In this document: in pieces, positions 3,646-22,102 of the stretch | How positions within the stretch are numbered: position 1 is the first letter of the stretch | Layout of the letters: the number at the start of each line of letters is the position of its first letter | Origin: Chloroflexota bacterium | Lineage (GTDB): Bacteria > Chloroflexota > UBA6077 > SHYK01 | NCBI GenBank assembly: GCA_016202435.1 | Contig: JACQOR010000008.1 | Location: 1 to 40,940, forward strand | DNA length: 40,940 nt | Reading direction: 5' to 3' | Notes under the pieces: model-generated | What the model was told of the DNA's origin: nothing | Seen by the model: only the letters and a program-made list of their open reading frames with translations | Database searches by the model: none | Program-made: the position numbers and the translations under genes

Positions 3646-5261
3646 CTAGGCCGCTGGCGCCTCCAGCGAGAGTTGTTCCAGCTCAGGCTGCTCCTCCCGC
3701 GGGAGGAGCAGCGCGCGCATCGACTCGGCGCTGACGTACGCCCGGCTGACCAGCCACTCGTCATTCTGCTCGGCGAGCACGGCTCCCAGGAGCCGGATCA
3801 CCGCGTCCTTGTTCGGGAAGATGCCCACCACCGCACTCCGTCGCTTCAACTCCTTGTTCAGGCGTTCGTACGGGTTCGTCGAGTAGATCTGCCGCCAGTG
3901 GGCCTGGGGGAAGTCGTAGAAGGTGAGCACCTCCTCCTCGGCGTCGGTGAGCAGCTTGGTGATCTGCGGGTACTGCCCGGCGAGGGTCCGGCAGACGGTC
4001 CGGAGCTGCTCCTGGGCCTGAGCTCGGCTGGTCTGCTGAAAGATCGTGCGCACGGCGGCTCCTATCATGGGCTGGGCGGATTTCGAGACGCGGGCCTCCA
4101 CATTCCGCAGGAAATGGACTTTATGCCGATGTCGGCATAAGAATCATTACGCCGACCTCCGGATTATGCCGACATGGCCGTCCCCCGGCGTTCAGACGGC
4201 CGCGTGGAGGTCGGCATAATCAGAGGCCTTCCAGGAAGGCAAGGAGACTGTCGGAGGGCCGGAATCGTCCGACCTTGGTCGCTGGCGGCGTTGCTCGGGC
4301 GAGAGCCCGCTTTGAGACTCAGGTCGGCGTGTGGTCCGGTCACCCGGACCCGCGCTGGGTTACCCATGTTCGCCTCCTTCCCCGGAAATCTCCGGAGGAG
4401 GAAGCGTCGGTTAGACGACTCGGATTATGCCGACCTTTTCAGGGTCAGCTGAGTTCGGACGGAGTAGCACATCGGCATAATCCGGAGGTCGGCGTAATGG
4501 ACTCGACACCGTTGCCAGGCGGCTCCGACGAATACCTGGGCAATCGCTTCTTTGAGCCCCCGGTGGGCATCGCTGATCACCAACTGGACGCCTCGGAGGC
4601 CACGCCCCACCAGTCCCTGGAGAAACTCCCGCCAGAGCACCAGGTCCTCGCTCATCCCGACGTCGAAGCCGAGCACCTCCCGCACCCCGTCAGCCCGGAG
4701 CCCGTAGGCGCCGACGACCGCCATCGAGACGACTCGGCCGCCCTCGCGCACGTGCTCGTACCGCGCGTCCATCCACACGTACGGAAAGTCCGCGTCCAGC
4801 CGTCGTTCCCGAAACGCCTGTACCTGCTCATCGAGTGAAGCGCAGAGCCGACTCACCTCACTCTTGCTCATGCCGGCGATCCCCAGCGACTGGACGAGGG
4901 CCTCGACCTTCCGAGTGCTCACTCCTTTGGCGTACGCCTCAGCGACCACCGCTACCAGCGCCTGCTCCGAGCGTTTCCGGGGCTCCAGCCAGCTCGGGAA
5001 ATAGCTTCCGGTCCGCAGCTTCGGAATCTCCAGCTCGAGGGTGCCGACCCGGGTGTCCCAGCGTCTGGTCCGATGTCCATTCCGGCGTCCGGTCCGCTCA
5101 TCCGTCCGCTCATAGGGTGCGGCGCCGACGATCGCCGTCACCTCGGCCTCCATCAGCTCTTGGACGAACCAATGCACCGCATCCCGAAGAAAGTCCCCGT
5201 TCTCTCCACCCTCCCCCTTGCGAAGAACGTCCAGGAGGGTCATGCTTTCGTCAGCGGCCAC
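3646..5261 (-). pseudogene. IS256-family (Mutator-type) transposase, split by an insertion
   Basis: The 5' half (5261-4504) encodes the N-terminal region and start of the DDE domain, including YVWMDARYEHVREGG and GVQLVISDAHRGLKEAI with the second catalytic Asp, up to WQRCRVH. The 3' half (4120-3646) resumes with FLRNVEARVSK and runs through IYSTNPYERLNKELKRR, which carries the catalytic Glu. Removing the inserted element plus one copy of its 7-bp target repeat (383 bases in all) restores one reading frame of 411 codons, a normal IS256 length. The interruption is therefore clean and recent. As it stands the gene cannot make an active transposase. Confidence 0.9.
4121..4496. mobile_element. Non-autonomous palindromic (MITE-like) element
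   Basis: The insert is flanked by the repeated heptamer ATGGACT (4114-4120 and 4497-4503), which lies within the IS256 transposase codons. Inside are several TTATGCCGA/TCGGCATAA motifs, including a perfect palindrome at 4121-4140. A 27-bp exact inverted repeat pairs 4146-4172 with 4472-4498 and overlaps the right target repeat by two bases. No protein-coding frame of credible quality is present, so it must be moved by an enzyme encoded elsewhere. The exact termini are uncertain because the long inverted repeat starts 25 bp inside the left edge. Confidence 0.75.
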
Positions 5262-6426: not shown

Positions 6427-6502
6427 GCCGAGGTAGCTCAGTCGGTAGAGCACGCGACTGAAAATCGCGGTGTCGGCGGTTCGATCCCGCCCCTCGGCAC
6501 CA
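6427..6502 (+). tRNA. tRNA-Phe (GAA)
   Basis: A full cloverleaf is present. The acceptor GCCGAGG pairs with CCTCGGC (6492-6498), the D arm is AGCTCAGTCGGTAGAGC, and the anticodon loop ACTGAAAAT has GAA after U33. The T arm is GGCGG/CCGCC with TTCGATC. CCA is encoded (6500-6502). It is the integration target of the adjacent element: the 3' 49 bases are repeated at 19179-19227. Integration leaves this copy intact, so the tRNA should still be functional. Confidence 0.95.
6453..6501. repeat. attL, 3' half of tRNA-Phe
   Basis: A 49-bp direct repeat, starting CGCGACTGAAAATCGCGG and ending CTCGGCACC, matches 19179-19227 with a single difference (C6490 versus G19216). It runs from the anticodon stem to the end of the acceptor, a classic attachment-site segment. 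Confidence 0.9.
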
Positions 6503-19178: not shown

Positions 19179-19227
19179 CGCGACTGAAAATCGCGGTGTC
19201 GGCGGTTCGATCCCGGCCCTCGGCACC
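19179..19227. repeat. attR, copied 3' half of tRNA-Phe
   Basis: A 49-bp repeat of the tRNA-Phe 3' half with one mismatch (G19216). It is not preceded by a tRNA 5' half, so this is the distal attachment site and not a second tRNA gene. Confidence 0.9.
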
Positions 19228-19230
19228 CTC

Positions 19231-19262
19231 ATGAGCGCTCGTTAGTGACTAGCGAGCGCTCA
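19231..19262. terminator. Strong hairpin after attR
   Basis: An 11-bp perfect stem (ATGAGCGCTCG with CGAGCGCTCAT) is extended by inner pairs around a short loop. TTCTTAT follows on the plus strand. It begins only four bases after the tRNA-derived attR, where the native terminator of tRNA-Phe would have stood. It also overlaps the end of the minus-strand gene that stops at 19260. Confidence 0.6.
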
Positions 19263-19505
19263 TTTCTTATCATGCTGTCCGCCCGAGCCGGAATTTGATG
19301 CCAAGATCACGAGGCTCCGAGCCGCCTGACTCGGCTCCCCGAATTGGGCCACCTGGAGGAGCTCCTCGTTGCTCAGCAGCTCGGTGACCCGCTGAGCAAC
19401 GACGTCGAACGCTTCGTCCGGCGCTGCACCGAGGGGCTCAATGAACTCCACTGCTATCCCAGGGTCACTGTCGGTAAGGCTCCCATTCAAGAATGGGCCC
19501 CTCAA
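19260..19505 (-). CDS. Possible frameshifted C-terminal extension of the upstream gene
   Basis: This 81-codon frame overlaps the last 41 bases of the HK97-like gene in the +1 frame. It encodes an acidic, well-balanced sequence (PGIAVEFIEPLGAAPDEAFD, then VTELLSNEELLQVAQFGEPS). There is no good ribosome-binding site for its TTG start. It could be an extension reached by +1 frameshifting, the original C-terminus separated by an indel, or a small independent gene. No family is recognised. Confidence 0.35.
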   Translation of the reverse strand: MRGPFLNGSLTDSDPGIAVEFIEPLGAAPDEAFDVVAQRVTELLSNEELLQVAQFGEPSQAARSLVILASNSGSGGQHDKK

Positions 19506-20364
19506 GTGGCGATCCGACGGCTGCGTTCTTGTTCAACACTTCGAGTTCGTAAGTCTCGAACAGTTCGAGTGTCACCTTGAGCTGTAGTTGTCGGACCGCA
19601 TCAGCCACATTTCTAGCGGCATCTGAAGGAGCACCGAGCTCGGGACTCTTCCTAAGGAGACTCCTCGCTCGTTCCTCCCCAATAGTCTCAATGTCGAATA
19701 CAGGCTCTTCACCGTGTCGCGTCAGTTGGCCGAACCGCTGAATATCGACAGCGTAAACGCCGGGAGCCCGGCTCTCTGGAATATCGAGCATGGGCACGTC
19801 TCCGAACATACCGAGGATTCTGAAGTTCGTGCCGAGGTCCTTCTTCATGTCATCCCTGTGGTGGCCCACTATGAGCGGGTGCTGCTGTAGATCGACCGCT
19901 AACTGGGTCCCTAAGGGCCCTGACAGGACGAATAGAGAGGGCGTGAAGCCCGTTCTTGTAAGTTCGTTGGCAAAACTCTGTAGCGCCAACACGACAGACT
20001 CGGCGTCCCTATTAACTGGTACGCCCAGCCGGTCAATGGTTGCTTGATGAAGCATGTCGTCGAATTTTTCCAGGAGCTTTCGCTCCATCGCTACTGCAAA
20101 GGACCATGAATTAAGAGGTGCCCAATTACCGAGATCGGTGAATGGCGCCTTGAAAAGAATTGCGCTGAACCCAGTCCACGCGACCTCTTCAGGTGCCGGA
20201 CGTTCATTGACCAGGCGGAAAGTGTGCACTCTGTTGAACAGCTTCTCGATGGTACGGGTCGTCTCTCGGTCTTTCAGAAAGCTGTCACGAAAGGCACGAA
20301 TGCGAGCGTCGGAGATCGGAGTCTCAAGAATTTGGTCGAGTTCACCAGGTGAGAGTGAACTCAT
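19465..20364 (-). CDS. Hypothetical protein with HK97-fold-like C-terminal half
   Basis: The protein has 299 residues, starting at ATG20364, which overlaps the end of the PIN gene (ATGA). No clear family is recalled. The C-terminal half has features that resemble HK97-type capsid or encapsulin subunits: a helix-strand with PSLFVLSGPLGTQLAVDL, a loop then ILGMFGDVPMLDIPES, GVYAVDIQRFG, and a final strand pair KVTLELFETYELEVLNKNAA, like the closing strands of these shell proteins. This is a resemblance by eye and needs structure prediction. The N-terminus is helical. Tight coupling to a PIN nuclease suggests that the two proteins act together. It lies just outside attR. Confidence 0.4.
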   Translation of the reverse strand: MSSLSPGELDQILETPISDARIRAFRDSFLKDRETTRTIEKLFNRVHTFRLVNERPAPEEVAWTGFSAILFKAPFTDLGNWAPLNSWSFAVAMERKLLEKFDDMLHQATIDRLGVPVNRDAESVVLALQSFANELTRTGFTPSLFVLSGPLGTQLAVDLQQHPLIVGHHRDDMKKDLGTNFRILGMFGDVPMLDIPESRAPGVYAVDIQRFGQLTRHGEEPVFDIETIGEERARSLLRKSPELGAPSDAARNVADAVRQLQLKVTLELFETYELEVLNKNAAVGSPLEGPILEWEPYRQ

Positions 20365-21074
20365 GGGATCGCCTTTTGCGGTTCCTGGCCGGCCCCGTAG
20401 GGCTGTGGGATCAACGCTTCAGGGGCCGCGTCAAGATACGCTTCTATGAAGCCCTTTATCGTTTGATGGAGCTCAATATTGAACCCTTCCTCCATGTTCA
20501 CCTCCTGCTGAACGCCCGCTGTGGGCAAGCGCAAGTCGGCCAATAGGTCTGGGTGAAGGACGGCAGGCTGAACTCGCGCCTCTGCGTAGTCACCATCCCC
20601 AGTGATCAGAGCGATAGGCGCGTCCGCGTTTTCATACAACTCAAGTATGGACATCCAGATGAGAACGTCATTTAGGCCCGTGCCCCTGCCGTCCGACTTG
20701 AACGGCCTGCGACGACCCCGGTTTCTCTCGAATAGCTCTCGGGTTGCTACCTCAGGCAAGTTCAGGACGCGGACTTCCCGCTCCTTGAGTAGATCGTCTA
20801 GTTTGCGCCGGTACTCGTCCACCTCTGTTTCCAGTTCGATACCTAATTCCGTCCCACGATCAGTTCGAAGCGCCGCTAAATCGAGACCTCTACGATTCTT
20901 TCGGATCGCTTTGTCCATCGCCTCCCGATAGTCCGCGACCATCTCCTCGATCACGACCTCCGGGATACAGACAACCCAGCCGCGAGACCTGGCGCCATCC
21001 AGCAAGCTCTTCGTCGCGGCGTGAGACAGGTAGAAGTCCTGAAAAATCGGCTGGGTATCTAGAACGATGTACAT
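20361..21074 (-). CDS. PIN-domain protein (DUF4935-like)
   Basis: The protein has 237 residues. The PIN fold is marked by MYIVLDTQPIF (first Asp at residue 6), then CIPEVVIEEMVADY (Glu pair), and SDGRGTGLNDVLIWMSILEL followed by IALITGDGDYAEAR with the later acidic residues. The charged helical insert between is typical of DUF4935. PIN domains are Mg2+-dependent ribonucleases, often toxins or RNA-processing enzymes. The downstream gene starts within its stop codon, so both are made together. No small antitoxin-like gene is beside it. DUF4935 proteins are longer than VapC, and their targets are not established. Confidence 0.75.
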   Translation of the reverse strand: MYIVLDTQPIFQDFYLSHAATKSLLDGARSRGWVVCIPEVVIEEMVADYREAMDKAIRKNRRGLDLAALRTDRGTELGIELETEVDEYRRKLDDLLKEREVRVLNLPEVATRELFERNRGRRRPFKSDGRGTGLNDVLIWMSILELYENADAPIALITGDGDYAEARVQPAVLHPDLLADLRLPTAGVQQEVNMEEGFNIELHQTIKGFIEAYLDAAPEALIPQPYGAGQEPQKAIP

Positions 21075-21273: not shown

Positions 21274-21835
21274 TTACTTCGCAACCCCCGCTGCTTGTGC
21301 GGCGAACAGCCCGTCGAGCCGCGCGGCTGCGCGGCGCTGCATGTCGGGCATCACGTGAGAGTAGACATCCATGGTGACGCTGATGGTGGCGTGCCCGAGG
21401 CGCTCTTGAACCACCTTGGGGTGCTCCCCGAGCGAGAGCAGCAGCGTTGCCGCCGTGTGGCGCAGATCGTGTAGTCGGATGATCGGAAGCCCCGCATGCT
21501 TGAGCAACGGCTTGAAGGAACGGCGATCCACATTGCCTCTCTCCAGCGGACCGCCGACCTCGTTGCAGAACACGCGGTTCTCATCCTTCCAGGCCCGCCC
21601 TACTTGGAGCCGTTCTTCGAGCTGTTGGACACGATGCTGCTTGAGCGCGTCCACCGCCAGGGCTGGTAGCGCGACGGTCCGCCGCCCTTTGGCGGTCTTG
21701 GGCTCGGTCAGCGTCCAGCCGCTGCTAGTGCGGCCCAGGGAGCGGCGGATCTGGATGGAGCCCGCCTCAAGATCAACGTCAGCCCACGTGAGAACGGCCA
21801 TCTCACCGAAGCGCATCCCCGTGACGAACCCCAGG
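21274..21835 (-). pseudogene. Tyrosine integrase, C-terminal half only
   Basis: The catalytic domain is readable from TGMRFGEMAVLTWADVDLEA (catalytic Arg) through KGRRTVALPALAVDALKQHR and HDLRHTAATLLLSLGEHP to VTMDVYSHVMPDMQRRAAAR with the Tyr nucleophile. The N-terminal ~190 residues (arm-binding and core-binding domains) are absent. The frame is cut at about 21820-21835, where the oppositely oriented VapC-like frame begins. It is a different integrase from the one at 6597, though similar in sequence. It is an inactive remnant of another element. Confidence 0.85.
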
Positions 21836-22102
21836 GTATTCGAACGGCCAGAAACGACAAGGGAAGCGTGGCGTCAGGTGCAGGCCTGGCTTGACTGTGC
21901 CTGCTCATGGATCCCGCCACCGGGAGAGCACCACGACGATCTCCTCGGAGAGCTCATCAAACTGCCGGGAATTCACGCTAACCTCGTTCCGGATGCCCAC
22001 CTGGCCGCGCTGGCCATCGAGCACGGCCTCACCCTCTGTTGCACGGACGGGGACTTTGCGCGGTTCCCGCGCCTGCAGTGGGAGAACCCGATCAGCCCGT
22101 GA
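21818..22102 (+). pseudogene. VapC-like PIN toxin, C-terminal part
   Basis: The frame reads VTNPRVFERPETTREAWRQV, then LVPDAHLAALAIEHG, TDGDFARFPRLQWENPI, the second half of a VapC toxin with two catalytic Asp (PDAHLAA and TDGDF). The first ~55 residues with the first catalytic Asp are missing. They would lie where the integrase remnant now is, so one deletion has truncated both genes at a shared junction. No VapB-like antitoxin is present. The product, if made, would lack the full active site. Confidence 0.75.

Follow-up and report, generated by a model that had tools for sequence, protein, structure and literature searches.

A gene overlapping a PIN_12 nuclease gene in a Chloroflexota bacterium encodes a domain that recurs at the C-terminus of effector-type proteins: a candidate module of a conflict system

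INTRODUCTION

Modular conflict systems in which one core module is combined with swapped effectors of the PIN, TIR or REase type have been described in bacteria (eLife 52696, PMC7159879). In CapRel and other capsid-sensing fused toxin-antitoxins, an N-terminal effector is followed by a C-terminal regulatory domain, and the antitoxin domain of CapRel can also act as a sensor that binds the capsid protein. Thoeris systems use ThsB-type TIR effectors. Encapsulins share the HK97 fold with phage capsids, and in the Family 4 encapsulins, which include the A-domain encapsulin 2PK8 described by Andreas and Giessen (PMC8346489), the gene for an enzyme lies upstream of the shell gene. PIN_12 (DUF4935) proteins (PF16289) carry a PIN domain with four conserved acids; in the literature searched, DUF4935 was mentioned only in an unrelated genome paper.

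Here we analyse a 40,940-nucleotide stretch of a Chloroflexota bacterium (contig JACQOR010000008.1), referred to as the window, in which a PIN_12 gene precedes a gene for a 299-residue protein that we call domain X. The PIN protein of the window retains the four acids, but the two PIN_12 relatives examined (from a Rhodococcus plasmid and from G188) are about 350–365 aa long from the conserved start, with a C-terminal region of their own and no X, whereas the window protein has 237 aa and is followed by X. As in the swapped-effector systems, X is found with PIN, TIR or nuclease-like effectors, although no NTP-dependent core was recognized here and X matches no described domain. The order of effector and C-terminal domain is that of CapRel, which offers a candidate logic for X, while the domains differ, and the CapRel sensor binds a capsid protein but is not known to resemble one. 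Two relatives (L013 and L018) have a TIR domain that matches ThsB models, although their C-terminal part is X and no ThsA gene was recognized on the 9-kb contig. To encapsulins and HK97-fold capsids (PF04454; the Family 4 A-domain, 2PK8), the low-confidence model of X shows a weak, repeated but non-significant Foldseek likeness, and with Family 4 X shares the gene order; it has no sequence or profile match to encapsulins, though the profile test had no power, at about 280 aa it is longer than the Family 4 proteins (about 100 aa), and its partners are TIR, nuclease and membrane modules rather than metabolic enzymes.

RESULTS AND DISCUSSION

The PIN gene and domain X are encoded by overlapping genes

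The genes at the centre of the analysis are the following.

20361–21074, minus strand: gene for a 237-aa PIN-domain nuclease of the PIN_12 (DUF4935) family, first of the pair; assigned by its Pfam match and conserved acids
19465–20364, minus strand: domain X gene, 299 aa, its start overlapping the PIN stop (ATGA); related along its full length to the C-terminal domain of proteins with TIR, PD-(D/E)XK-like or transmembrane regions
19260–19505, minus strand: 81-aa reading frame across the end of the X gene, probably a small third gene, as judged by codon bias and by a relative of X that stops at the same place

An earlier note on this DNA had described a DUF4935-like PIN gene overlapping the 299-residue gene by four bases, and both observations were confirmed. 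The PIN protein matches Pfam PIN_12 (PF16289) with E=2e-19 and 71.1 bits, the curated cut-off being 32, and when the window protein is aligned with two other PIN_12 proteins, the PIN active-site residues D6, E44, D136 and D160 are the same in all three. The ATG of the X gene overlaps the PIN stop codon, giving a 4-bp overlap (ATGA) between two genes of the minus strand; PIN and X in the window are separate, translationally coupled genes. Neither the PIN protein nor X matched the PADLOC models, and no second PIN–X pair was found in the genomes searched, so that the pair is known from the window alone.

The overlapping frame probably encodes a small third protein

The same note had read the overlapping frame as a coherent segment that could be a frameshifted extension of the 299-residue protein. 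The frame is present and its coding character is above chance: the 68 codons beyond the X stop have a GC content of 0.72, 0.42 and 0.71 at the first, second and third positions and a codon log-likelihood of +0.15 nats per codon, which is a host-like bias, and only 0.04% of 5,000 shuffles reached that score in any open frame. Since its codon structure is host-like and so rarely matched by shuffles, the frame is probably coding. As an extension conserved with X, however, it was rejected. X terminates in GPILEWEPYRQ*, and its nearest relative, the L012 fragment with 55% identity, in GPVLEWKAGS*; because this relative stops at nearly the same residue without a matching downstream peptide, the X stop is natural, and a separate gene is likelier than a frameshift product, for which no support was seen. 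Nothing resembling the 81-aa peptide turned up in the neighbourhood of the relatives of X, L012 included. The frame thus probably corresponds to a small third gene, with a putative start at TTG 19490 or GTG 19451.

Domain X recurs behind different effector-type modules

Searches of Pfam, PADLOC and NCBIfam with X gave no match up to E=1; PHROGs yielded no meaningful match (best 0.19), and no PDB sequence was significantly similar. Its relatives were recovered by whole-genome searches within the phylum, and we infer that their hosts are other Chloroflexota. The distribution is patchy and rare, with X in 3 of 400 genomes of the phylum and in 8 of 393 genomes of one class, and close relatives were absent from plasmids, phages (50,697 phage records) and IMG/VR contigs in tblastn and pattern scans. 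A Streptomyces plasmid match (E 0.6) was discarded as the antisense of an acyl-CoA ligase-like frame; an Aeromonas match had an E of 0.3.

Five X proteins only were long enough to judge. The copies in L011, L012, L046 and L048 are truncated or frameshifted, which suggests that some copies are decaying, and the L012 fragment has no PIN gene. From L017 only the first ~106 residues were used, its contig being apparently chimeric: on this public MAG contig (JADFHR010000159.1, L017:2-1111) X runs straight into an ImuB-like frame.

Four kinds of module were found in front of X. Besides the PIN gene of the window, in a 598-aa protein (L014, genome G094) a PD-(D/E)XK-like N-terminal part precedes X, which makes up the C-terminal half and to which window X is 30% identical over 286 aa (E=2e-27). 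The arrangement recurs, frameshifted, in L011 (G498), and both share the motif PEVI..TAAIEVKRL; the region has no Pfam match and is likely to be PD-(D/E)XK-like as judged from this motif, read by eye. In L013 and L018 a TIR domain (TIR_2 E=2.4e-8; ThsB-like in PADLOC, E=8e-20) is followed by X, at 25% identity (E=1e-9) to that of the window. The fourth kind is an 864-aa protein (L047, G608) with about four predicted transmembrane helices, a long helical region and then X; a truncated relative (L048) is 38% identical to it and matches window X at 23% over 286 aa (E=8e-9). In L046 (G807) a separate gene for four predicted transmembrane helices precedes a protein that the contig end truncates after the beginning of X, the homology being weak.

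In every readable case the effector is N-terminal to or upstream of X. On sequence comparison, then, X and the order (effector, then X) are constant while the predicted effector changes among a PIN RNase, a PD-(D/E)XK-like part, a TIR domain and transmembrane helices. What is new here is that the 299-aa protein is, by homology, a recurrent domain at the C-terminus of effector-type proteins. The pairing with a PIN nuclease that the earlier note had placed at the centre is not specific among the relatives recovered, nor is the gene pair conserved: homologues of X carry PD-(D/E)XK-like, TIR or transmembrane regions in the same protein, with no PIN gene alongside.

Two neighbouring features were also observed. 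In L013, a 337-aa gene on the minus strand (4019-5032) overlaps the end of the TIR–X gene; it has no PADLOC or Pfam match and is possibly a partner of TIR–X. In L047 (1232-3826), the helical region between the transmembrane helices and X comprises ~430 residues shared with L048 (38% identity), has no Pfam match and represents another undescribed domain.

The pair may belong to a modular conflict system

Because one domain stays constant while the module in front of it changes, and because its spread is patchy and its context is one of defence and mobile elements, we think it fairly probable that the pair exemplifies a rare type of modular conflict system, presumably anti-phage or acting by abortive infection, in which X is the constant part and the effector is exchangeable. 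The context comprises a defence island around the PD-(D/E)XK-like relative in G094, and an integrase remnant with a tRNA-Phe repeat in the window. The swapping of PIN, PD-(D/E)XK-like, TIR and membrane modules against a constant unrecognized domain is the signature that revealed several bacterial immune systems.

In such a system X would be the common C-terminal module that senses a trigger, regulates or scaffolds, and the upstream or N-terminal module would be the exchangeable effector (PIN RNase, PD-(D/E)XK-like nuclease, TIR or transmembrane helices). In the window, X may bind the PIN protein and keep it silent or pre-assembled; a trigger associated with invasion, such as a phage, would change X, and the PIN RNase would then cut cellular RNA, so that growth and phage production stop. 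In the transmembrane types X may not be the sensor, because the ~430 extra helical residues separate the membrane part from it. Even without an HK97 relationship, X would be a compact candidate sensor or regulator domain that is missing from the defence library searched (PADLOC).

A toxin-antitoxin pair, with PIN as a VapC-like toxin and X as its antitoxin and without phage sensing, would agree with the PIN nuclease, the 4-bp overlap and the mobile-element scar nearby. We regard it as unlikely: the gene order puts the toxin ahead of its antitoxin, X greatly exceeds typical antitoxins in size, and it is also found joined to TIR or PD-(D/E)XK-like domains. It shades into the modular conflict system that we prefer, because the antitoxin domain of CapRel can also be a sensor.

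Structural models leave an HK97-like core about evenly balanced

The earlier note had further suggested that the C-terminal half of X has an HK97-type, shell-like fold. AlphaFold (AF2) was run with three sequences only as input, and the models of window X and of its homologue in L018 were of low confidence (pLDDT 36.1 and 38.2, respectively). After residue 121, the window X model (pLDDT 36) consists of helix-strand-helix-helix-strand-strand-strand, an order that, in this low-confidence model, fits the HK97 A-domain but also other alpha/beta folds. When this model was compared with the PDB by Foldseek, HK97-fold shell proteins from unrelated families made up six of the top seven matches (lambda procapsid, 2PK8, HRP29 capsid, two more lambda capsids and T4 head), all non-significant, with a best E of 0.43; the P-SCSP1u capsid, the Thermotoga maritima (T. 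maritima) encapsulin and the Sf6 head complex followed lower in the list, likewise non-significant. In BFVD, several major capsid proteins, by name, were among the first 50 matches, again non-significant, and the best E values of capsid matches were 0.07–0.4. The L018 model matched ribosomal eL30, with no capsid among the 50 matches listed. The suggested fold thus keeps its place at the head of the PDB list, but none of the matches is significant and the homologue does not reproduce them.

Comparison of X with encapsulins and HK97 capsids by hhalign gave no signal, and neither did the true control pair of encapsulin and HK97 capsid, so that this test had no power. PF04454 (Encapsulin Family 1) and PF05065 (Phage_capsid) had no match in X or its relatives, or anywhere in the genome of the window. 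Weak PF05065 matches in other genomes (L032 and L035 were inspected) lay in distinct ORFs of their own and not in X. We hold an HK97-like core in X to be about as probable as its absence, and treat it as a plausible addition to, not a part of, the claim of a modular conflict system. A domesticated HK97-type capsid domain might then act as the shared sensor or scaffold in an immune system whose RNase, nuclease, TIR and membrane effectors are interchangeable, and could co-assemble with phage capsids or mimic them, bringing the effector to the virus; we consider this possible but doubtful. Such a mechanism could be a bacterial parallel to capsid-targeted inactivation. If X were HK97-like, a virus-shell fold would be the constant part of an immune system, which could be tested with few small genes.

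The proposal that X forms a closed HK97-fold shell around the PIN nuclease, as an encapsulated or shell-scaffolded RNase, draws on the capsids heading the PDB list, on the major capsid proteins in BFVD, on the element order after residue 121 and on the two-gene operons in which A-domain encapsulins follow an enzyme gene, the same order as PIN–X (PMC8346489). These matches are non-significant, however, and the main text of that encapsulin survey mentions no nucleases, TIR domains or toxins (PMC8346489); in the literature searched, no paper combined encapsulin, TIR and HK97. Since TIR, PD-(D/E)XK-like and membrane proteins also end in X, which fits poorly with a shell subunit, a closed compartment is quite unlikely, and the encapsulation of the nuclease put forward in the earlier note found no support.

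Another reading takes X as an enzyme or an RNA-binding module in its own right, for example of the L7Ae-like alpha/beta type, that guides effectors to RNA and has no shell ancestry. Both low-confidence models match such folds (eL30 for L018; YlxQ and an L7Ae chain for window X), but these matches are equally non-significant, and X, with its ~280 aa, has long N-terminal helices that are absent from such folds, so that this reading appears very unlikely. The view of X as a former prophage capsid gene, decayed or domesticated, that lies beside PIN by chance is scarcely credible in spite of the weak capsid-like matches and the integrase scar nearby, being largely refuted by the homologues fused to effector domains, with no relative in the phage records or the IMG/VR scans and no other phage genes recognized around X in the part of the window examined.

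The surroundings of the pair carry traces of mobile elements

The following features flank the gene pair or belong to the repeat that ends beside it.

6427–6502, plus strand: intact tRNA-Phe (gaa), the other repeat copy
19179–19227, plus strand: 49-bp copy (98%) of the 3' part of tRNA-Phe, an attachment-site-like repeat
19231–19263, plus strand: 16-bp inverted repeat, terminator-like on this strand, flanked by the small ORF and the tRNA fragment
21274–21816, minus strand: C-terminal half of a tyrosine integrase that lacks its N-terminal half, located immediately upstream of PIN (Pfam Phage_integrase E=2.4e-19, profile positions 36-169)
21820–22102, plus strand: putative remnant of a VapC-type PIN toxin (C-terminal part) directly beside the broken integrase, seen in the translated frame 21416-22102

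The direct repeat 6453-6501/19179-19227 (49 bp, 98%) corresponds to the 3' half of tRNA-Phe and frames 12.7 kb; its attachment-site-like form suggests the scar of an integrative element. The broken integrase lies just beyond this framed segment. Next to it, the second half of frame 21416-22102 on the plus strand, from about 21820 (VTNPRVFERPETTREAW...), resembles what we take to be the C-terminal part of a VapC toxin; the joining of this part to antisense integrase in one frame is apparently a deletion or recombination scar.

In the G094 genome, the PD-(D/E)XK-like relative is flanked by a PDC-M68A-like HNH gene, a HerA/mad8-like (MADS-like) ATPase, an M78-HTH gene and a DUF4411 PIN gene. The segment L014:7239-12914, with the PDC-M68A-like HNH protein, a 416-aa protein, the HerA-like ATPase and a GHKL ATPase, looks like a further multi-gene system. 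Elsewhere in the window there are dispersed direct repeats, 444-570/16415-16541 (127 bp, 89%) and 11499-11584/13514-13597 (86 bp, 90%).
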